From positions 1 through 32,566 of the forward strand of contig JAFXHY010000123.1 in NCBI GenBank assembly GCA_017536215.1: a DNA stretch of 32,566 bases, read 5' to 3'. Of the stretch, positions 4,394 to 20,320 are shown one piece after another. Source of the DNA: Muribaculaceae bacterium. GTDB taxonomy: Bacteria; Bacteroidota; Bacteroidia; Bacteroidales; Muribaculaceae. Below the pieces are notes generated by a model. That model was not told the origin of the DNA. It saw only the letters and a list, made by a program, of their open reading frames with translations, and did no database searches. The translations under genes and the position numbers were made by a program. The first letter of the stretch is position 1, and each line of letters opens with the position of its first letter.

Positions 4394-4717
4394 ATGGCAT
4401 TCAAATTCACAGACGACAATGTAGACGAAGTAATAGCATCAGGGAAACCTGTAGTTATTGATTTTTGGGGCACATATTGCGGTCCTTGCATGGCCATGTC
4501 GCCCATCGTTGATGAGTTGGCAGAAGAATACGCCGACAAAGTTGTAATCGGGAAATACAACGTTGAAGAAGAAAACGACTTCGCTGCTGTCAATCGCATC
4601 ATGTCTATTCCCGCGTTCTTATTCTACAAAGATGGCAAAAAGGTGGCTATTCGCCTTGCCGGCTCACAATCTAAAGAAACATTAAAAGGAAAAATTGACG
4701 AACTTTTGGCTATGTAA
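4394..4717 (+). CDS. trxA: Thioredoxin
   Basis: Small cytoplasmic dithiol-disulfide oxidoreductase of 107 residues, the usual size for thioredoxin. The active site reads WGTYCGPC (25-32) with redox cysteines C29 and C32, and the expected cis-proline is P73 in the MSIPAF stretch. The residue before the first cysteine is Tyr, where classical thioredoxins have Trp (WCGPC). There is no signal peptide, so it acts in the cytoplasm, for example in reducing ribonucleotide reductase or peroxidases. The gene starts 16 bp after dnaE and is followed within 31 bp by a strong terminator, so the two genes probably form one transcript. The function is clear at family level; the specific client proteins are unknown. 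Confidence 0.93.
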   Translation: MAFKFTDDNVDEVIASGKPVVIDFWGTYCGPCMAMSPIVDELAEEYADKVVIGKYNVEEENDFAAVNRIMSIPAFLFYKDGKKVAIRLAGSQSKETLKGKIDELLAM

Positions 4718-4744
4718 TTCAAGCAGAAAGTATCACCTAAACTC

Positions 4745-4775
4745 AAGCCGAGGAGAAAAACTCCTCGGTTTTTTT
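4745..4775 (+). terminator. Rho-independent terminator after trxA
   Basis: An 8-bp GC-rich stem CCGAGGAG / CTCCTCGG (4748-4755 and 4761-4768) with an AAAAA loop is followed by seven T (4769-4775). It closes the dnaE-trxA transcript. Confidence 0.93.
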
Positions 4776-5101
4776 ATATCCCGAAGCTCATTATTATAAC
4801 ACTAATTTGACATCATTATTTATAGAACAACAACACTTTCGCGAGAAAAATCTTGCAAAAATTGAATATTTTTCATATTTTTGACCGATTTTTTTTGTTA
4901 TTATAAAGTGGGAGTAGTTATTATGATAGATACCATTAACGCAACAAATATTAATATTTTTTCAACTATCTGTCCATAATTCTTAATTATAATTCCATTG
5001 GCATAAAAATCAAATCAAAATGCTATATTAAACGAATCTCAACATCTCAGCAAAGTTGAATATTAGTTAACTCAGATAATTTAAACAATTAAATAATAAT
5101 T
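4776..5101 (+). promoter_or_regulatory. Promoter and long 5' leader of the DUF4493 operon
   Basis: CTTG at 4852-4855, a 20-bp spacer and TATTTTTG at 4876-4883 form a Bacteroidetes promoter. The predicted start near 4890 leaves a leader of about 210 nt before the first lipoprotein gene, unusually long for this window. The leader is AT-rich. It has an 18-codon ATG frame (4923-4979) behind a GGGAG sequence and a weak inverted repeat ATAATT-CTT-AATTAT near 4977-4991. I recognise no known riboswitch. Confidence 0.55.
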
Positions 5102-7510
5102 ATGAAATTAATTTATGGAGTATTGTCGACAGCGATGCTTTTAGCAATCAATAGTAGCTGTAGCGACGATTACAATCCGAGCGAGGGCTCTTCCGGGAAG
5201 ATAAACCCGCTACTCGAACTCGACACCGAGGCGATAACTTCGCGCTCGCAAACTCAAAGCAGAGATGCCGCAACCATCTCAGTTAATGACTTGAAATTAC
5301 GACTCACTTCTACCGATGGTTCTTTCTCTAAAGAATGGAGCTCAATTTCTGAATTCGACAACAACGAATTATTTAAAGTTGGCACATACACTCTTGAAGC
5401 GATTTATGGCTCCATAGAAGAGGAAGGCTTTGAAATGCCCTATTACTATGGTTCCACCCAAGTCATAGTAAAAGAAAACAAAGTGACTCAAGCTTCATTA
5501 AGCGCAGAATTAGCCAATTCCATGGTAAGCATCGCCACTACAGAAGCTTTCCAATCCTACTTTACCACTTATTCATTTCAAGCTCACTCTGAAGGTGGAG
5601 ATTTCCTAAACTTTACATCTACAGAAAATCGTCCGGGTTACCTTCGCCCCGGCAAAGTTACTGTCACTGCTGATGTAACCAAGCCCAACGGACAAACCGC
5701 GTCGGTTGAAGCTGCAGTTTTTGTAGCTGAGCCCAAACATCACTATACAATTACTATCGATGTTAATAATGGCGAAGCAGGAAGTGCGCAATTAGTCATC
5801 ACCTACGATGATTTGCTCGACCAAGAAGACGTTTACATCGATTTGAGTGACGATATTTTAAGTTATCCCGCTCCGGTCGTTGTAGCTCAAGGTTTTGAAA
5901 TCGGAACTACCCTCTCGGTAATAGAAGGCGACAAGGGGATAGTAACTCCGAGTTTCTTCATAAACGCTGAAGGAGGGATAAGCTCTGTTGTTATGACTAC
6001 TCAATCTTCATCACTTATCGAGCAAGGTTGGTACAACGAAATCGACTTAGCAGCGGCAACCCCGGCTCAACAATCTAAATTAAAGTCGTTAGGACTCGAT
6101 GTAAAGGGTTTGTTTGGAAATATTGACCGCATGGCTCAAATTGACTTCACCAATGTGATTCCTCTCATCAAATATTTAGAAGGCGGCAACAACACATCAA
6201 CATTCACAATAGTTGTCAAAGACAAATATAACAAAGTCAGCGAACCAATTTCTCTATCCATATTCGTTGACCCGATACTTTTGACTATTGAAGAAGATGT
6301 CACCCCCAATATTGGGTCATCTACAATGTCATTAATTGTCAACTACAATGGTGATGATTTGGCAAACGATGTGACGATTCAATACAAAAATGTTCGTGGC
6401 ACTTGGGATAACACCAATATTACAAATGTCACCAACCTCTCCAACAATCGTTATAAGGTTGAAATAGACGGAATTCCCGCTAACGACACGACTGTAACAC
6501 TTCGCGCAGCAGTAAGTTCCAAGGAAAGTAACGAACTCGTAATCAGCAAAAACGGGTTCACCATCTCGGCAACAGCCAACGATTCGTTTGCCACTCGCGC
6601 TCGCATTGTTCCCACCTACTTAGACGACGAGACAAAAGCCAACGCATCGTCTGTGATATATTCAGTATCGGAAGATGGGGATAGCTATACTACCGTCAAC
6701 CACACTATAGAAAGCGATGGCTCTGCTTGGATTTCAGGTCTACCCTCCGGCAAAAATCTCTTTGTTAAAGCAGTTATAGATGATAAGATTGCCAATACGG
6801 AAATTACTACCGAAGTGGCAGCACAAATCCCCGATAGCGACATGAACGACAACTGGTGGAGAGCCAGAGGTGGCAACAATTGGGACTTCTACTATGCATA
6901 TGCCGAAGGTACACCTCAAGTATGGGACACCATGAATGAGGAAACTACATCTGAGAAAGGAGTAGGCGCAGCCTATGTAACAACATCAGGGACTAAGCCT
7001 GCCACAGGCGTTAATGGACAATGCGCTCTTATACGCACTGTTGGTTGGGGCGCAGGTAATACTGCCGGAGGATCTATCAGTATTGTTTACAACACTACCG
7101 CAGGACAACTCTATTTAGGAAAATTCAATGGAGTGGGTGCAACACCTAATTATGGGTATGCATTTTCTTCACGCCCGTCGAGCATTAAGTTCAATACTAA
7201 ATACGCAGCCTACAAGTCAGATGACTTTGGTAGCGCAGAAATTCGAGTCCTCGACGCATCAGGGAATGTATTAGCTTCAAACTCCACCAACATTGGTACC
7301 GACAAGAGTGATTGGACTGAAATCACCCTCCCACTCTCCTACCCCGCAAATGCCGCAAAAGCAGCTACTATTATAGTCATATTCAAATCTACAGCCCATA
7401 GTAATGGAGCGACAAAGAACTACCTCAAGCTACCCGCATTTGCAGCAAATTCAAAAACAGAATCAGTTGGTGGTCAGCTATATATCGACGACATCATGTT
7501 AAACTACTAA
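5102..7510 (+). CDS. DUF4493-type surface lipoprotein with C-terminal PCMD-like domain
   Basis: Predicted outer-membrane lipoprotein of 802 residues. A short signal peptide ends at C20 (NSSC), followed by Ser-Asp-Asp, which resembles the Bacteroidetes lipoprotein surface-export signal. Residues about 40-220 look like DUF4493: a beta-rich repeat with a conserved pattern of the type VGTYTLEAIYG and later RPGYLRPG. A middle domain (about 245-395) is shared with the next two genes. An Ig/FN3-like stretch lies at about 395-575. The C-terminal part (about 577-802) resembles PCMD, a putative carbohydrate-metabolism jelly-roll domain, and ends in LYIDDIMLNY. It is first in a three-gene operon, and its stop codon overlaps the next start (TAATG). 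I infer a role in binding glycans or surface structures; no enzymatic residues are visible. The domain names are from memory of the family pattern. Confidence 0.85.
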   Translation: MKLIYGVLSTAMLLAINSSCSDDYNPSEGSSGKINPLLELDTEAITSRSQTQSRDAATISVNDLKLRLTSTDGSFSKEWSSISEFDNNELFKVGTYTLEAIYGSIEEEGFEMPYYYGSTQVIVKENKVTQASLSAELANSMVSIATTEAFQSYFTTYSFQAHSEGGDFLNFTSTENRPGYLRPGKVTVTADVTKPNGQTASVEAAVFVAEPKHHYTITIDVNNGEAGSAQLVITYDDLLDQEDVYIDLSDDILSYPAPVVVAQGFEIGTTLSVIEGDKGIVTPSFFINAEGGISSVVMTTQSSSLIEQGWYNEIDLAAATPAQQSKLKSLGLDVKGLFGNIDRMAQIDFTNVIPLIKYLEGGNNTSTFTIVVKDKYNKVSEPISLSIFVDPILLTIEEDVTPNIGSSTMSLIVNYNGDDLANDVTIQYKNVRGTWDNTNITNVTNLSNNRYKVEIDGIPANDTTVTLRAAVSSKESNELVISKNGFTISATANDSFATRARIVPTYLDDETKANASSVIYSVSEDGDSYTTVNHTIESDGSAWISGLPSGKNLFVKAVIDDKIANTEITTEVAAQIPDSDMNDNWWRARGGNNWDFYYAYAEGTPQVWDTMNEETTSEKGVGAAYVTTSGTKPATGVNGQCALIRTVGWGAGNTAGGSISIVYNTTAGQLYLGKFNGVGATPNYGYAFSSRPSSIKFNTKYAAYKSDDFGSAEIRVLDASGNVLASNSTNIGTDKSDWTEITLPLSYPANAAKAATIIVIFKSTAHSNGATKNYLKLPAFAANSKTESVGGQLYIDDIMLNY

Positions 7511-8805
7511 TGAATAGACACTATATGAACTATAAAATATTTTCAACAATAGCAATTGCAACCTTCATGATGTCATCGTGCAGTGACAATTGGGCACCTT
7601 CAACCGACGAAGAAGGTGTAGGTCAATTGCATATGGAAGCAATCAACGTCACAAATGCAGAGAATGTTATCAATCGAGCAAGCGTTGATGTCAGCAACTT
7701 TATTATCACTATAAATAATGCTGAGGGTGAAACGGTGAAACGATGGAAATATTCTGAAATGCCGGAAATTGTAACCCTTCCGGTCGACGAAGGATACTAC
7801 ATTGATGTCATCTCTCATAACCAAGAAAAAGCAGCTTGGGACGCACCATTCTTCAAAGGTTCCTCTGAGAAATTTAACATTGTAAAAAACCAGTTAACTA
7901 ATGCAGGTACTATCACTTGTAAACTATCTAACATCAAAGTTTCAGTCAGATTTGCCGACGATCTTAAAAATATAATGGAAGATGATTGCAAGGTAACTGT
8001 TGTAGCCAATGATGAAGGTATGTTGGAATTTACCGCAGACGAAACACGTTCCGGCTACTTCCAAGCTATTGAAGGTAGCACTACATTAATTGCAACATTC
8101 ACCGGTACAATTCGCGGAAGCTACGAAGAGATTCGCAAAGTATACACCGACGTTGAAGCCGGACAACACCGTATCATCACATACAGCGTCAAATCAGGAG
8201 ATTCTACAATCCCCGATGAAAATGGCAACATCGACATCTCCAATGGCATTTCTGTTGACATGTCGACTATCGATGAAAGCATTGATGGCAACGTATCTAC
8301 TGATGAAGATATAATTGATGGCGACCGTCCGGGACAAGAAGAACCTATCAATCCCGACCCCGATGACCCCAATCCTGATAATCCCGAGGTTGATTACTTT
8401 ACATTCAACACAAGTATTTCATTGACCGACATCAATGAAGCCCTTGAAGGGAAAGACTATGTGGTTGGCATTCTTTCTGTAAATCCGCTATCAAATCTCA
8501 AAGTTAAAATTGAGTCAAACTATCTAACCGAAGAATTCCTTGCCAGCGTAGGCCTTGTATCAGAATTTGACCTTGCCAACCTCACCCCCGAACTCGAAAG
8601 TAAACTTGGTGAAGGCGGATTCGGATTCCCCACTGGAGATGAAGTTAAGGGCAACACTTCAGTTAATTTCGACTTAACTCCATTCATCCCGTTGCTCAAC
8701 CTCAGCCCTACCCCCAATGATATTCATAAATTCCATTTGACTGTCGTTGACGACCAAAACAATAGCGAAACTGTAGTATTAACCTTTATTTCAGGAGTAG
8801 AATAA
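7510..8805 (+). CDS. DUF4493-type surface lipoprotein, short form
   Basis: A paralogue of the genes on both sides, 431 residues. The signal peptide ends at C24 (MSSC), again followed by Ser-Asp. The DUF4493 region spans about 30-240 and includes RSGYFQAIEG, parallel to RPGYLRPG upstream and RKGYFMMPS downstream. A Pro/Asp-rich linker at about 280-298 (PDPDDPNPDNPEV) leads into the middle domain shared by all three proteins (about 298-430). The protein ends there and lacks the PCMD-like domain of its neighbours. It starts on the last base of the upstream stop codon, so translational coupling is likely. A second in-frame ATG at codon 6 would give a more typical signal peptide. Function unknown; I infer a surface-exposed partner of the other two. 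Confidence 0.82.
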   Translation: MNRHYMNYKIFSTIAIATFMMSSCSDNWAPSTDEEGVGQLHMEAINVTNAENVINRASVDVSNFIITINNAEGETVKRWKYSEMPEIVTLPVDEGYYIDVISHNQEKAAWDAPFFKGSSEKFNIVKNQLTNAGTITCKLSNIKVSVRFADDLKNIMEDDCKVTVVANDEGMLEFTADETRSGYFQAIEGSTTLIATFTGTIRGSYEEIRKVYTDVEAGQHRIITYSVKSGDSTIPDENGNIDISNGISVDMSTIDESIDGNVSTDEDIIDGDRPGQEEPINPDPDDPNPDNPEVDYFTFNTSISLTDINEALEGKDYVVGILSVNPLSNLKVKIESNYLTEEFLASVGLVSEFDLANLTPELESKLGEGGFGFPTGDEVKGNTSVNFDLTPFIPLLNLSPTPNDIHKFHLTVVDDQNNSETVVLTFISGVE

Positions 8806-8807
8806 CA

Positions 8808-10976
8808 ATGAAAAAACTATATATTGCAAGTACTGTCGCTGTAGGATTGGCTCTGATGACAGCATGCTCCGACAACCACGAATATGCCCTCGAAGGAGAA
8901 GGTAATTTGGTTTTGACAACCTCTTTCAGCAACGATGTCAAAATCGCTTCTCGCGCATCGCTCGAAGAGGAATTATCGGAGTCTACAATTATTTGGATTT
9001 CAAGTACAAAAGGTCTTGTACGCAAATACGAAGGATTACAGAATCTTCCGGCCGAAGGAATTAAACTTTTAGGTGGCAACTATGTTGCCGAAGCTTGGGC
9101 CGGTGATAGCCTTTCCGCATCGTTCGATGCTAAATATTATAAAGGCCGAGCTCCTTTTACAATTACCTCAGGAACTACCCGAGTAGAGCTCCCCTGTCGA
9201 ATTGCCAACGTCGTTGCTTCAGTTAAATATACTAACGACGTAAAAGAAGTATTGACCGACTACACTCTCACTATCGGTCATGACCGTGGCTCTCTCGAAT
9301 TCATCGGTGATGATGAGCGTAAAGGATATTTCATGATGCCTTCAACCTCAAAAGACCTAACTTGGACTCTATCTGGTAAACTTGCCGATGGCTCTACATT
9401 CTCTAAAAACGGTGTCATTGAAAATGTACAACCCACTACCGAATACATCTTGCATGTCACTTATACTCCAACATCCAACAACGAAGGTGGTGCATTCATC
9501 AATATAGTTATCGATGAAACCACAGTTGACTCTGAGGACGAGATTCTAATCTCTGTAGCCCCCGACATTGTTGGTACAACATTCGACATCAATAAAGGCA
9601 TTGCAGGTCAACCCGGTCTATTTGAAAAGAAATCGGTATATATAACAGCTTCTTCTGCGCTCAAAAGCGTAGTTCTCGAAACCTCTTTGCTCGCCAACAT
9701 TATAGGTGGCAATGATGTTGATTTAATGGCAACAGACGAATCTATTAAAAACACCCTCTCAGCAGCAGGTATTGAATGGTTCTACTCCTACAATGATGTA
9801 GAAGATGTATCCAACTTGAAGATAAACTTCAATGAGGAGTGGCTCAACACTATCCCCGTAGGTGAATACCTTGTAAACATCTCTGCGACCGACAATCAAA
9901 ACAAGAAATCGACAGTAGCGATGCCTATTACGATAACAAATGCCAAAGCAGAAGTTATTGAAGTGAGCAGCAATGCCGCAACAACATGGGCAACACAAGC
10001 TACTATCTATGGTCGCATCCTCGACTCAACTATTACTGAAGCTAATCTTGAATACCGCAAAGCCGGAGGTTCAAATTGGACATCTGCAACAACTACAATC
10101 GACGGAGAAAATCTTTCTGCTATAATAACCGGTCTTACCCCCGGCACTACTTATGAATATCGCGTTGTTTGTGCCGACTTTGAAAGCCCCGCCAAGACTA
10201 TCACTACCGAATCTGCTTTGCAACTAAGCAATGCCGGATTCGAAGGTTGGCAAGAAAGCTCAGGTAGTAGCGCGACCCTCATCTACGCTGCAGGAGATGC
10301 TTTATTCTGGGATTCAGGTAATCATGGCTCTGCATCTCTCAAAAAGCAAGTGACAACGCCCGATGGCACTTACAAACATTCAGGCAATTACTCTGCTTTG
10401 CTCTCTTCTCAGAAAGTAGCTTTCCTTGGCATCGGCAAATTTGCCGCCGGAAACATCTTCATCGGTCAATACCTTAAAACAGATGGCACCGACGGTATCC
10501 TCGGATGGGGTCGTCCATTTGCTTCTCGTCCGAAAGCATTAAAAGGCTACGTACGCTACGAGCCCGGCACAATCAGCTATAACGACTGCTCTATTAGCGA
10601 CAAAAAAGCTGAAATGGAAGCCCACATGGGAGAACCCGACCAAGGCACCATCTACATCATTATTCTTGACGACACTAACAAAATGACTGCAAGTAGCGTC
10701 GATACAGGAAAAGAAAGCACTTGGCCTATCGTTGTTGAAACTAAGAAAGGTCAATTAGTTGATGTAAACCGTAGCAATGTTATCGGTTATGGACAACTAT
10801 TCTTCGATGCTACACAAAGCGACGGAATGATTGAATTTGAAATACCTATCGAATACTTCAGAACCGACGTCAAGGCTGCAAATATAGCCATTACATGTTC
10901 TGCATCTCGATATGGCGACTATTTCTGTGGTGGTGATTCTAAGATGTGGATTGACGATTTCGAACTCGTATATTAA
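8808..10976 (+). CDS. DUF4493-type surface lipoprotein with FN3-like and PCMD-like domains
   Basis: Third paralogue of the operon, 722 residues, starting 2 bp after the previous stop. The signal peptide ends at C20 (MTAC), followed by Ser-Asp-Asn. DUF4493 covers about 28-225, and the shared middle domain about 240-378. A clear fibronectin-III-like domain (about 380-470) contains GLTPGTTYEYRVVC. The C-terminal PCMD-like domain (about 475-722) begins LSNAGFEGW and ends MWIDDFELVY, matching the end of the first gene's protein. A terminator follows directly. The architecture suits an extracellular adhesin or glycan-binding lipoprotein, but no substrate can be named from sequence. Confidence 0.85.
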   Translation: MKKLYIASTVAVGLALMTACSDNHEYALEGEGNLVLTTSFSNDVKIASRASLEEELSESTIIWISSTKGLVRKYEGLQNLPAEGIKLLGGNYVAEAWAGDSLSASFDAKYYKGRAPFTITSGTTRVELPCRIANVVASVKYTNDVKEVLTDYTLTIGHDRGSLEFIGDDERKGYFMMPSTSKDLTWTLSGKLADGSTFSKNGVIENVQPTTEYILHVTYTPTSNNEGGAFINIVIDETTVDSEDEILISVAPDIVGTTFDINKGIAGQPGLFEKKSVYITASSALKSVVLETSLLANIIGGNDVDLMATDESIKNTLSAAGIEWFYSYNDVEDVSNLKINFNEEWLNTIPVGEYLVNISATDNQNKKSTVAMPITITNAKAEVIEVSSNAATTWATQATIYGRILDSTITEANLEYRKAGGSNWTSATTTIDGENLSAIITGLTPGTTYEYRVVCADFESPAKTITTESALQLSNAGFEGWQESSGSSATLIYAAGDALFWDSGNHGSASLKKQVTTPDGTYKHSGNYSALLSSQKVAFLGIGKFAAGNIFIGQYLKTDGTDGILGWGRPFASRPKALKGYVRYEPGTISYNDCSISDKKAEMEAHMGEPDQGTIYIIILDDTNKMTASSVDTGKESTWPIVVETKKGQLVDVNRSNVIGYGQLFFDATQSDGMIEFEIPIEYFRTDVKAANIAITCSASRYGDYFCGGDSKMWIDDFELVY

Positions 10977-11006: not shown

Positions 11007-11042
11007 GGGAGGTGGCTAATTATGTCACCTCCTTATTTTTTT
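11007..11042 (+). terminator. Terminator of the DUF4493 operon
   Basis: A 7-bp stem GGAGGTG (11008-11014) / CACCTCC (11026-11032), extended by a G-T pair, with an 11-nt loop. It is followed by TTATTTTTTT. It lies 30 bp after the third lipoprotein gene. Confidence 0.85.
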
Positions 11043-14361: not shown

Positions 14362-15258
14362 TCAAAATTCCATTGAGTAGGCTTTATTTCGGAACGCAAG
14401 AGGCGACATATTCATGCGCGACTTAAAATATTTCCCGAAAAAAGATTGATTCACGAATCCCATCATGCCACTTATCTGATTGATTGATAAATCAGTTGTC
14501 TCAAGCAAGCGACGTATTTCATTGAGTACATAATAATCAATCCAATCGCTCGGCGGGCGATTACTTATTTCTTTGACCACTGCCGACAAATGTTTTGCCG
14601 ACACACCTAATCTATCTGCGTAAAATTTAACCGACCTCTCTCTTTTAAAATTATTCTCTACTTCAACTATAAATTTAAAAAATAGAGTGTCGGCACGACT
14701 ACATTGCGTATTTATACTACCTTGAATGCGTTTTGAATAATTGTTCAACGTTTCACAGAATACACCTTCACACAATTTAGCAACAACTAACGAATCAAAA
14801 TGGTTATCCGACTTGGGTAGCTTATGCTTTAAAAGGTTCGTAAATAATACCAATGTTTCAAACTCAGTAGCATCAAGTTGTATGATTGGATTATCCTTAT
14901 AATAGTACATACAAACAAGAATACGCGACATCAACGGCAACATATTAGTAAAATTTGATATCGCGGCTGATATCAACATCCCTTCAAAGTCGTCCGACGG
15001 AGTGAATTTTCGCACCAAATGTCCGGGCAATAATACTAATATCGAACATGGTATAAGTTTTACCGTCGTCATATCGTAACCAAGTTCAAGCGATCCCTTC
15101 GTACAAGCCACTAAAATTATAGTATGAGTCTTGCGAGGGAACATAAACTTTTCATTTACCTTATCTACCGAGTCGAGTACGGCAAGAAAAGAATTCCATC
15201 CGGCTTGATTATTGTTGAGCAACGAAATATTAGACTGAGTCAAGGATTGGGTATCCAT
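14362..15258 (-). CDS. AraC family transcriptional regulator
   Basis: DNA-binding regulator of 298 residues. The N-terminal part (about 20-180) fits a cupin-like sensing domain but has no diagnostic motif. The C-terminal 100 residues form the two-helix-turn-helix AraC domain: FYADRLGVSAKHLSAVVKE is the first HTH and INQISGMMGFVNQSFFGKYF the second, followed by the typical family ending MSPLAFRN. I start at the ATG at 15258; a TTG at 15318 would add 20 residues but lies upstream of a promoter-like TACTTTAG (15303-15296 read leftward). The gene is divergent from the DUF6377 regulator gene. An imperfect palindrome at 15330-15350 between them could be its operator. The effector is unknown. Confidence 0.85.
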   Translation of the reverse strand: MDTQSLTQSNISLLNNNQAGWNSFLAVLDSVDKVNEKFMFPRKTHTIILVACTKGSLELGYDMTTVKLIPCSILVLLPGHLVRKFTPSDDFEGMLISAAISNFTNMLPLMSRILVCMYYYKDNPIIQLDATEFETLVLFTNLLKHKLPKSDNHFDSLVVAKLCEGVFCETLNNYSKRIQGSINTQCSRADTLFFKFIVEVENNFKRERSVKFYADRLGVSAKHLSAVVKEISNRPPSDWIDYYVLNEIRRLLETTDLSINQISGMMGFVNQSFFGKYFKSRMNMSPLAFRNKAYSMEF

Positions 15259-15329
15259 TAATTTATGCCTGTTAGTATTTTTTGTAATTACTTTGCTAAA
15301 GTACGAATTTTTATCCAATTCTCCTAACT

Positions 15330-15460: not shown

Positions 15461-15468
15461 TATTTTTG
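15461..15468 (+). promoter_or_regulatory. -7 box of the DUF6377 gene; decides the start codon
   Basis: TATTTTTG matches TAnnTTTG. Transcription would begin near 15475, so the in-frame TTG at 15466-15468 lies inside the promoter and cannot be the start. The ATG at 15493 remains. I find no well-placed -33 TTTG. Confidence 0.5.
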
Positions 15469-15492
15469 CCATATACCTATTTTTTTGTCTGG

Positions 15493-17067
15493 ATGGACCG
15501 ATTGTTAACCTTAATTTGCTTACTCTGTATAAGCACAGCCTCATCCTTTGCTATTAATGTATCAAAGGGCGATGTAGAAAAAGAATTAGAACAACTTGAC
15601 AATGAGATTGCCAAGCGTTCTGTTTATATCAAAGCTCGAGAAGCGCGTATTGACTCATTACGCAATAAGATTACCGAAAACGTAACCGGCTCGCGATTGC
15701 TTGAACTCACCATGGAGATTGGTGATTTATACAGTTCCTTTAATAATGATTCTGCAATTACCTACTATCAAAAAGGTCAAGAAAAAGCATTAGAATTTGA
15801 AGACACAATTAAAGCCTTTCGATTTCAAGTTAAATGCGCATCTCTTCGTCCATTATCCGGATTCATCGATGAAGGAGTTAAAGAATACGAAAGCATCGAC
15901 GCATCTAATTTGCCTATCGAAGAATTGGAATTATACTATAATACCGGTCGGCAACTTTATTCCTATATTGCTTCCTCATTCGTCAATTATCCCAAAGCCT
16001 ACAATTATTGGAATGAAAAAGTAAAACTAAAACGCGACTCTTTACTCGGAGTGCTTAAACAAGGCTCTCAAACCTACGACCTCAATTATAGTGAAGCCCT
16101 CATCGAAGCCGGAGAATTTAAAAAAGCAAAAGTTGTCCTTGTCGACCTTTTGGACCACACCACCCCCAATAGTAATATTAATGCTCGTGCATGTCATATG
16201 CTTTCTACTATTGCGAGGATGAATGGAAACAAAGAAGAACAAACTTATTATTTGGCAAAATCTGCTATCGCCGACATAAAAGGCGCTGTTAGAGAGGTTA
16301 TGTCCCTACAAGAGCTCGGCAATATTATGTCGGACCATAAAGACATCAATCGTGCATATTTATATCTCTCGGAAGCTCTTTCCAGTGCAGTAGAATGTAA
16401 CGCAACAATGCGTATCGTGCAAACTTCCGCCTCTCTTCCTCTTATTCAAAAAGCTCACTCGGCTCAAATTGAATCATGGCGAAATCTAATGTATTTCGTC
16501 ATAGGTTGTATAATTATAATCTTGATTATTCTGGTAATCACCCTCCTTGTGCTTCGAAAACAGATGCGTAAGCAATCTATGCTAAAAGCTAAAATTCAAG
16601 GAGCCAATCAAGTAAAAGAAATTTATATCAGTCAATTCTTCCGACTCTGTGCAATGTATATCGACAAGCTGAACCAATTCTGCAAAATTGCTAATCGCAA
16701 AATCTCATTGGGGCAAGTCGACGACCTTTACAAAATCACTAAGTCAGGCAAACTTGTAGAGGAACAAAGCGAAGAATTCTACAAACTTTTCGACGACGCT
16801 TTCCTTCACATCTACCCCACTTTCATCGAAGATGTAAACGCTCTTCTCAAAGAAAAAATAGTACTCAAAGAAGGCGAACTTCTCAACAACGATTTCCGTA
16901 TCTTGGCATTTATGCGTTTGGGACTTGAGGACACCAATCAAGTGGCTCTAATTCTCAACTACTCTGTAAACACAATCTATGCCTATCGCAACAAACTGCG
17001 TAACAGAGCTTACGACCGCGACAACTTCGAAAAGGATATCATGTCAATCGGCGCTATCAATGAATAA
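15493..17067 (+). CDS. DUF6377 membrane-anchored regulator (TPR-like, HTH-type C-terminus)
   Basis: Protein of 524 residues. An N-terminal signal peptide (MDRLLTLICLLCISTASSFA) is followed by a coiled region with KELEQLDNEI, a TPR-like helical periplasmic part to about 325, one membrane segment (about 332-354), a basic LRKQMRKQ stop-transfer and a cytoplasmic part. The last 60 residues, with LNNDFRILAFMRLGLED and YSVNTIYAYRNKLRNRA, match the helix-turn-helix-like end typical of Bacteroidetes DUF6377 regulators. The topology suggests it senses a periplasmic signal and acts on DNA or RNA polymerase while membrane-bound. The ATG at 15493 is chosen because the earlier TTG lies within the promoter. 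It is divergent from the AraC-type regulator and convergent with mutL. The target genes are unknown. Confidence 0.8.
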   Translation: MDRLLTLICLLCISTASSFAINVSKGDVEKELEQLDNEIAKRSVYIKAREARIDSLRNKITENVTGSRLLELTMEIGDLYSSFNNDSAITYYQKGQEKALEFEDTIKAFRFQVKCASLRPLSGFIDEGVKEYESIDASNLPIEELELYYNTGRQLYSYIASSFVNYPKAYNYWNEKVKLKRDSLLGVLKQGSQTYDLNYSEALIEAGEFKKAKVVLVDLLDHTTPNSNINARACHMLSTIARMNGNKEEQTYYLAKSAIADIKGAVREVMSLQELGNIMSDHKDINRAYLYLSEALSSAVECNATMRIVQTSASLPLIQKAHSAQIESWRNLMYFVIGCIIIILIILVITLLVLRKQMRKQSMLKAKIQGANQVKEIYISQFFRLCAMYIDKLNQFCKIANRKISLGQVDDLYKITKSGKLVEEQSEEFYKLFDDAFLHIYPTFIEDVNALLKEKIVLKEGELLNNDFRILAFMRLGLEDTNQVALILNYSVNTIYAYRNKLRNRAYDRDNFEKDIMSIGAINE

Positions 17068-19142: not shown

Positions 19143-19150
19143 TATCTTTG
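19143..19150 (+). promoter_or_regulatory. -7 box of the ATP-grasp gene; decides the start codon
   Basis: TATCTTTG matches TAnnTTTG. The in-frame TTG at 19148 is part of this box, so the ATG at 19169 is the likely start, about 12 nt after the predicted transcript start. No -33 box is clear. Confidence 0.5.
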
Positions 19151-19168
19151 CATAAAAATTCACCGACG

Positions 19169-20320
19169 ATGAACACTTTGTGGATATTCAACCCCGACAA
19201 CGACATTGCGTTAGGCAACAACCTTCGCAACTTCACCCCACCGCGCAATGCTATGCTTCTTCGCCAAGCCGGAGCGATGCTACCGGTGTGGACCGCCTTC
19301 GATGGTGATTTTATATATTCCGACAATCCCGCCGATTCTAATTGGCTTCAATCCGTAATGTCGGTTTCCCGCAAAAATATCTCTTTGCTGTCCGGCGACA
19401 ACATCGATAAAATCGAGTCGATAAGTCCGTGGGGATGGTCGCGCGCAATCGCCAATACATTGCAGCAAAAAGGTGTTCCGCCCTATTTACTCCCTTCCGA
19501 TGAGCAAATCGACAAAATTAGAATATTGTCACATCGACGCTCTTCAATCTTCATAAATCAGCAACTACAACAACACGGTCTGAATGCTTCAATCCCGGTA
19601 GAATTTTCTGATATCCAACAACTGAAATCTTATCTTGACACACACCATTCGGCAGTTGTTCTCAAATCTCCATGGTCGTCGAGCGGACGAGGTGTTTTAT
19701 ACTCCGACAATACCGAAACATCTCGACTACTGAGCCAAGCCGAGGGCATAATTAAAAATCAAGGTAGCATACTGGTAGAGCCAAAGCACAAAAAAATCAT
19801 TGATTTCGCCATGCTATATCAACTGAAAAACGGCATAGCCAAATACGTTGGGCTGTCGGTATTCAACACCCTCATCGGTGGAAACTACACCGGCAATATA
19901 GTCGCCTCGGAGCAACATCTATCAAACATTATCACACAATACATCTCTCCAACGTATCTCACTCAACTACAAAATGCTCTTGAGGTTATCCTCTGCGACT
20001 TAGTTGGGAATAACTACAACGGGATTTGTGGCATCGACATGATGGTCTACGTTGATGAAAACGGAGATTACCAAATAGCTCCTTGCATCGAACTCAACCT
20101 ACGCCACACAATGGGCTACGTGGCGCATTGCCTTGCCCGCGACATAATCGCACCCTACTCTATCGCTGAAATGAAGGTAGAATACATCGGCAACAATCCC
20201 GCCGACATGCAACAATATCTACCCCCACAATTTGATAACAACAACCGCCTAATTAATGGGACACTATCATTAATCCCCACCAACCCCCATTTCGCCATCA
20301 CCCTCACCACCACTCCATAG
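19169..20320 (+). CDS. Orphan ATP-grasp fold protein
   Basis: Protein of 383 residues without signal peptide or membrane segment, so cytoplasmic. The N-terminus reads MNTLWIFNPDNDIALG. The central part carries ATP-grasp features: a strand-lysine followed by a Gly/Ser-rich loop (VVLKSPWSSSGRGVLYSD), a second strand with acidic residues (ILVEPKHKKIIDFAMLYQL), and a late GIDMMVY ... CIELNLRHTMGY segment where Asp, Glu and Asn would bind magnesium and ATP. ATP-grasp enzymes join a carboxylate, via an acyl-phosphate, to an amine or thiol. I cannot name the substrates. No carrier, precursor peptide or partner gene lies next to it; its neighbours are divergent mutL and a convergent tRNA gene. I infer a peptide- or amino-acid-ligating enzyme, with low certainty on substrate. 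Confidence 0.75.
   Translation: MNTLWIFNPDNDIALGNNLRNFTPPRNAMLLRQAGAMLPVWTAFDGDFIYSDNPADSNWLQSVMSVSRKNISLLSGDNIDKIESISPWGWSRAIANTLQQKGVPPYLLPSDEQIDKIRILSHRRSSIFINQQLQQHGLNASIPVEFSDIQQLKSYLDTHHSAVVLKSPWSSSGRGVLYSDNTETSRLLSQAEGIIKNQGSILVEPKHKKIIDFAMLYQLKNGIAKYVGLSVFNTLIGGNYTGNIVASEQHLSNIITQYISPTYLTQLQNALEVILCDLVGNNYNGICGIDMMVYVDENGDYQIAPCIELNLRHTMGYVAHCLARDIIAPYSIAEMKVEYIGNNPADMQQYLPPQFDNNNRLINGTLSLIPTNPHFAITLTTTP

Follow-up and report, generated by a model that had tools for sequence, protein, structure and literature searches.

The analyzed window, a 32,566-nucleotide stretch of Muribaculaceae DNA, carries three forward-strand open reading frames at the positions first assigned to them: gene A (5102–7510, 802 aa), gene B (7510–8805 as first called, 431 aa) and gene C (8808–10976, 722 aa). 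None of the three has an NCBIfam match, and the sole Rfam match is a tRNA. A terminator-like hairpin with a T-run 3′ of trxA (4745–4771, forward strand, 11-pair stem) splits the operon from the upstream genes, and another 3′ of C (11007–11033, forward strand, 10-pair stem) closes it, in a hairpin scan whose overall count was only slightly above that of shuffled sequences. A promoter-like pair of the Bacteroides type, recognized by eye, spans 4853–4883 on the same strand (TTG at 4853–4855, TATTTTTG at 4876–4883) and presumably corresponds to the Bacteroides −33/−7 consensus. The only inverted repeats upstream of the operon are AT-rich and imperfect, which makes an invertible promoter unconvincing.

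The initial annotation described a TAATG stop–start overlap between A and B and read balanced synthesis from it. The overlap rests on the first ATG of B and is doubtful: homologues of B align to an internal ATG at 7525, which is the likelier start, and the A–B spacing in same-genus loci is 14–16 nt. Based on these two observations, a 14-nt gap between A and B is the likelier arrangement, and the argument for balanced synthesis is correspondingly weak. The 2-nt gap between B and C is real and is kept within the genus. As judged from Pfam matches of the neighboring genes in the window, no SusC/SusD pair or glycoside hydrolase lies beside A-B-C, so the description of the locus as other than an ordinary polysaccharide utilization locus holds. 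Elsewhere in the window, a DUF6377 regulator-like gene (15466–17067) sits beside an AraC gene (14362–15318, minus strand), and a 390-aa protein with no Pfam match (19148–20320) is encoded between mutL and a tRNA-Met gene. AraC homologues adjoin the DUF4493 set in loci L103, L115 and L116 too.

Architecture and pilin-like core of A, B and C

All three proteins begin as predicted lipoproteins. The lipobox Cys, which in A is Cys20 (5159–5161, forward strand), is followed by S-D-D in A and by S-D-N in both B and C. These motifs are close to SDDDD, which has been put forward as the surface-export consensus of B. fragilis (PMC5080379). By pattern, a lipobox is present in 84/96 distinct homologues of A, 103/112 of B and 96/99 of C. 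In all three, the N-terminal region is DUF4493 (PF14900), scoring 143 (A), 162 (B) and 163 bits (C) against a curated cut-off of 27 bits. In A, this two-domain core (residues 28–246, 5183–5839; Pfam and fold) precedes Ig-like spacers, an FN3-like domain and a PCMD-like jelly roll (residues 574–802, 6821–7507; family profile and fold). In B, the DUF4493 region (residues 36–263, 7615–8298; Pfam) is followed by an acidic Pro-rich linker and an Ig-like domain. In C, the core (residues 28–247, 8889–9548) leads into an Ig-like and then an FN3-like domain (residues 250–470, 9555–10217), both stretches being assigned by Pfam and fold, and into a C-terminal PCMD domain (residues 471–722, 10218–10973). 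All of these features lie on the forward strand.

The PCMD domain (PF13201) of C was found by Pfam (130 bits, residues 478–721). That of A was missed by the Pfam scan and came from the family profile, which matches solved PCMD structures (E 1.7e-5 to 6e-4). Thus, of the profile searches proposed at the outset, the one for DUF4493 succeeded in all three proteins and the Pfam search for PCMD in C and not in A. B is without PCMD, and its family profile has no match among solved structures. The C-terminal ends that had been summarized as (Y/W)IDD-x2-L-x-Y are YIDDIMLNY in A and WIDDFELVY in C. A and C are homologous over their full length (hhalign E 2.4e-69), and B aligns to them only through the middle Ig-like domain (E 8e-40 and 1.6e-37), the shared middle domain of the first description. 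On the profile, fold and hhalign matches together, the graded architecture is judged to be real and not a product of chance.

To examine the folds, AlphaFold models of full-length C and A (pLDDT 86.5 each) were searched against solved structures with VIA-align. The DUF4493 part of the C model matches 4gpv, 4k4k, 5nf4 (the Mfa3 tip), 3ufi and 3up6 (Z 9.0–9.8, rmsd 3.4–5.5, 179–202 residues), and that of the A model matches 4h40, 4gpv, 3ufi, 3gf8 (DUF1812/Mfa2 type) and 3pay (Z 7.7–9.6). Among the matches listed for both models, every one that covers the DUF4493 part and nothing else is a fimbrial or adhesin structure from Bacteroidales. Because these Z-scores, obtained with full-length models, are middling, an independent sequence test was made. 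The DUF4493 profile aligns with the Mfa2/FimB family of related genomes (score 52.9, probability 91%, E 9e-7), collinear over the first domain, and the eight column-permuted controls and one reversed control all scored at or below 18.3. The remaining domains of C (Ig, FN3 and PCMD) gave no match to Mfa2/FimB, Mfa_like_1 gave no significant match to the DUF4493 profile, and a single-sequence Pfam scan of A, B and C gave no fimbrillin match. The core of BT1062 consists of two transthyretin-like domains and a C-terminal hairpin (PMC2954217), and the A and C models show the same kind of arrangement over DUF4493: two β domains and a closing hairpin. In the models, DUF4493 is therefore a fimbrillin-like (type V pilin-like) two-domain core, and the profile alignment to Mfa2 agrees. 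Shared domains in the predicted structures, on which the initial annotation depended, are present: A and C have both the DUF4493 fold and PCMD in common.

The PCMD domain of C superimposes on solved PCMD structures with Z 21.6–23.2, and residues 574–802 of A superimpose on four of them with Z 17.0–18.2. After the PCMD structures, the nearest neighbors of the A domain are jelly-roll modules of carbohydrate-active proteins (Z 9–11), which is suggestive of carbohydrate binding. "Putative glycoside hydrolase", the name carried by the solved PCMD structures, is a label only.

In type V pilins, an exposed Arg or Lys in the β1–β2 loop is the site of precursor cleavage, as with Arg49 of Mfa1 and Arg43 of Mfa3 (PMC5789003, PMC4789730). 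A, B and C all have such a residue: Arg48 and Arg54 in A (codons 5243–5245 and 5261–5263), Arg56 in B (7675–7677) and Arg49 in C (8952–8954), all on the forward strand. The loop is the low-confidence stretch of both the A and C models. Within the loop, conservation is highest at Arg49 in the C family (84%) and at Arg56 in the B family (75%); in the A family, a loop Arg is nearly always there, at a position that shifts with loop length. Arg is enriched 2.1–3.2-fold in the loop over positions elsewhere and Lys shows no enrichment; both conservation and enrichment are to be read with loop bounds that were picked around the Arg and with related alignment rows. The bare presence of an Arg or Lys near the loop was dropped as evidence, as 94% of random 32-aa domain windows hold one. 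A C11 (clostripain-type) peptidase is encoded in 22/22 checked genomes with the set. It also occurs in some genomes without the set, and its co-occurrence is thus permissive evidence only. One genus of the family, g17 (G017, G040, G060, G095), is without DUF4493, D/E and the C11 peptidase together.

Several features of type V pili were sought as well. No Trp is conserved where the DUF4493 core ends, as judged by the consensus of each of the three families; the near-terminal Trp is missing from Mfa4 too (PMC5789003). No shaft-pilin C-terminus is present, with A and C ending in PCMD and B in an Ig-like domain, and the operon has no shaft-type gene. Nor is an uncleaved anchor obvious among the three proteins. 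The Mfa2/FimB anchor (PF08842) has no match among the window proteins or in the source genome (69% complete), nor in seven near-complete genomes with the triad (G031, G051, G010, G018, G021, G041 and G050). As the near-terminal Trp, the shaft subunit and the Mfa2 anchor were all looked for and not found, A-B-C is not classed as a type V pilus.

Conservation of the trio and its partner genes

The source genome holds exactly three DUF4493 genes in its 69%-complete assembly, all of them in A-B-C. Within the family, DUF4493 is found in 196/247 genomes and 28/30 genera; a sample of the order yielded it in 34/295 genomes. The arrangement of a long A, a B of ~430 aa and a C of ~720 aa on one strand recurs in nine of the families sampled across the order, and four- or five-gene variants occur in four further families. 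Among 80 homologues of C in named genomes, Barnesiella sp. An55 and Bacteroides gallinarum included, 70 belong to a complete A-B-C arrangement; for the remaining 10, the contig breaks off with no room left for the missing gene. Homologues that occur singly and never together, the outcome that would have spoken against the initial annotation, are thus not what the survey of Bacteroidales returned, and its suggestion that the three act as a set is plausible. A tree built from 97 DUF4493 domains groups A, B and C by operon position across families (18/20 each), with the exceptions on long branches. This clustering places the origin of the three paralogues before the split of several Bacteroidales families. 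Flanking genes are not conserved beyond the genus, the partners D, E and F excepted. Synteny was dismissed as the cause of conservation: dnaE-trxA and lptG-ribBA adjoin the operon only in its own genus and partly at one other locus.

Departures from the three-gene layout were also recorded. Loci L124 and L125 are tandem expansions to eight and six DUF4493 genes, respectively. L103, L110, L112 and L115–L117 have a DUF4493-only gene of ~225–285 aa, either added to the set or taking the place of a member, with only one D/E barrel per genome. At L089, A and C have lost their PCMD ends (418, 398 and 383 aa) and D-E-F is still there. A different DUF4493 architecture is seen in other families (L114, L136, L137, L138, L141), where single genes of ~420 aa end in a lamin-tail-like W-C-x-S...TGDLGTPG..N..C motif with no D/E/F nearby.

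The partner genes D (~246 aa), E (~285 aa) and F (~530 aa) lie directly 3′ of C on the same strand at many loci in many Bacteroidales families. D and E belong to one family. Their signal peptides, alternating strands and terminal ...FYL or ...VHI, together with a weak OMP_b-brl match in 3/23 members, make outer-membrane barrels likely; they have no match among solved structures. F, a lipoprotein (CIKNDIPYPR), carries PCMD in 15/15 members, and its residues 46–208 match the Ig domains of a levan surface glycan-binding protein (E 2e-8). In the source genome, D-E-F lies apart from A-B-C and outside the window, on contig C114 (L302, 4521–7796), with D at 7056–7796, E at 6112–7050 and F at 4521–6095, all on the minus strand.

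In the 247 genomes of the family, DUF4493 and D/E occur together in 175, DUF4493 alone in 21, D/E alone in 4 and neither in 47 (Fisher p 3e-29, a guide only, as the genomes are related). D/E is present, nearly always in two copies, in 124/126 family genomes with at least three DUF4493 genes, and the two exceptions are 71% and 76% complete; in the order sample the count is 23/24. That D-E-F almost always accompanies A-B-C suggests that the operon is half of a six-gene set, which may form an undescribed six-part surface attachment system.

Possible modes of action

The account given most weight here, and at present about evenly balanced between right and wrong, is that A, B and C are pilin-like subunits of a heteromeric surface adhesin whose heads resemble carbohydrate-binding domains; it would be anchored at D/E, or assembled through them, and activated by Arg cleavage. 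This account builds on the architecture, the fold match, the loop Arg, the conservation of the paralogues and the co-occurrence of D, E and F, as observed. A, B and C would be exported by Sec and lipidated, and the S-D-D/N signal would then direct their display on the surface. An Arg-specific protease, for which the C11 clostripain homologue is a candidate, would cut the β1–β2 loop at the conserved Arg, and the groove so freed would be filled by a strand from a partner subunit. The outcome would be an ordered A-B-C complex, whose formation and stoichiometry we infer, at or on the D/E barrels, with the PCMD heads presented to glycans. A bolder version, which we regard as unlikely, takes A–F to be a Bacteroidales outer-membrane assembly system in which Arg cleavage activates three pilin-like lipoproteins, with two small β-barrels as their dedicated assembly site. 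To our knowledge, type V pili have no usher or helper protein; if this version were true, the barrel pair would fill that missing role.

The heads may instead serve nutrient capture, in the manner of surface glycan-binding proteins. A, B, C and F would bind glycan via PCMD domains, D/E would be small diffusion channels or docking barrels, and the pilin-like core would be an uncleaved stalk. The N-terminal Ig domains that F has in common with the levan-binding lipoprotein of a SusCD utilisome are in line with such a role, as are the whole-length Foldseek match of C to the mixed-linkage-glucan protein SGBP-B (E 2e-9) and the resemblance of the A head, after PCMD structures, to carbohydrate-binding jelly rolls. 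However, the operon has no SusC/SusD, TonB receptor or glycoside hydrolase beside it in the window, D/E is too small for a TonB-dependent barrel, and the set is near-universal at constant copy number in the family, unlike substrate-specific utilization loci. We consider this account a real contender that is nonetheless somewhat improbable. If the three lipoproteins instead had no more in common than an ancestral fold and acted separately, without complex, cleavage or strand exchange, the operon would reflect co-regulation only. Each of them has indeed kept a lipobox and a surface-export-like signal, and a single A or a single B stands beside D-E-F at L123, L126, L128, L132 and L133, indicating that the trio is not always needed. 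The order, membership and position-specific identity of the paralogues, which are kept across many families, go beyond the usual chance co-regulation, and the loop Arg is conserved in A, B and C alike; separate action is accordingly rated distinctly unlikely. Finally, by analogy with a Porphyromonas fimbrillin-like lipoprotein described as pivotal for vesicle production (PMC11316588), the set might be an outer-membrane vesicle or envelope-structure system and not an adhesin, with D/E as membrane scaffolds. The small size and near-constant copy number of D/E would fit this role. Against it, the PCMD heads suggest an outward-facing ligand, and we hold the proposal to be very improbable.

Relation to known systems

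Muribaculaceae rank among the major bacteria in the gut of mice and other animals. Most of the sampled genomes of the family (DUF4493 in 196/247) carry the A-B-C system, whose domains are unnamed in the literature searched: DUF4493/PF14900, PF13201 and the PCMD domain are unmentioned there, and "PCMD" was found only in papers on rhizobial bacteroids. DUF4493 and PCMD are thus known domain families whose function is undescribed in that literature. The link between DUF4493 and fimbrillins and the six-gene set also appear to be undescribed, as judged by that literature. The fimbrillin link gives DUF4493, a domain of unknown function, a testable role, and the putative D/E barrel pair is a concrete candidate for the anchoring or assembly of pilin-like lipoproteins in Bacteroidota.

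A, B and C are made as lipoprotein precursors, as are the minor subunits of type V pili, chief among them the Mfa3 tip protein and the Mfa2/FimB anchor family (PF08842). In both models, DUF4493 matches the two-domain core of these subunits, its profile aligns to Mfa2, and the flexible β1–β2 loop with its Arg is a further likeness. Mfa3 also bears extra C-terminal residues beyond the core, as A, B and C do. In contrast to Fim/Mfa proteins, A-B-C has long Ig/FN3/PCMD extensions and is without the shaft-type C-terminus and the near-terminal Trp; its operon has no Mfa2 gene, and several near-complete genomes with the set have none either. We know of no D/E-type barrel partners in Fim/Mfa clusters.

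The C-terminal jelly roll of A and C is like that of PCMD proteins of known structure (3hbz, BT_2081; 4het, BT3745; 4jrl, BACOVA_00087; 3s30, BVU_0247), with Z 17–23. Unlike A and C, those proteins are chains of about 340–360 aa without DUF4493. With the surface glycan-binding proteins of polysaccharide utilization loci (SusE/F type, SGBP-lev and the mixed-linkage-glucan SGBP-B), A-B-C has in common a surface lipoprotein form, Ig-like spacers in tandem and a ligand domain at the C-terminus, and F and SGBP-lev have N-terminal Ig domains in common. A-B-C differs from these proteins in having no adjoining SusC/SusD or enzymes, in its pilin-like base and in its fixed operon of three paralogues.
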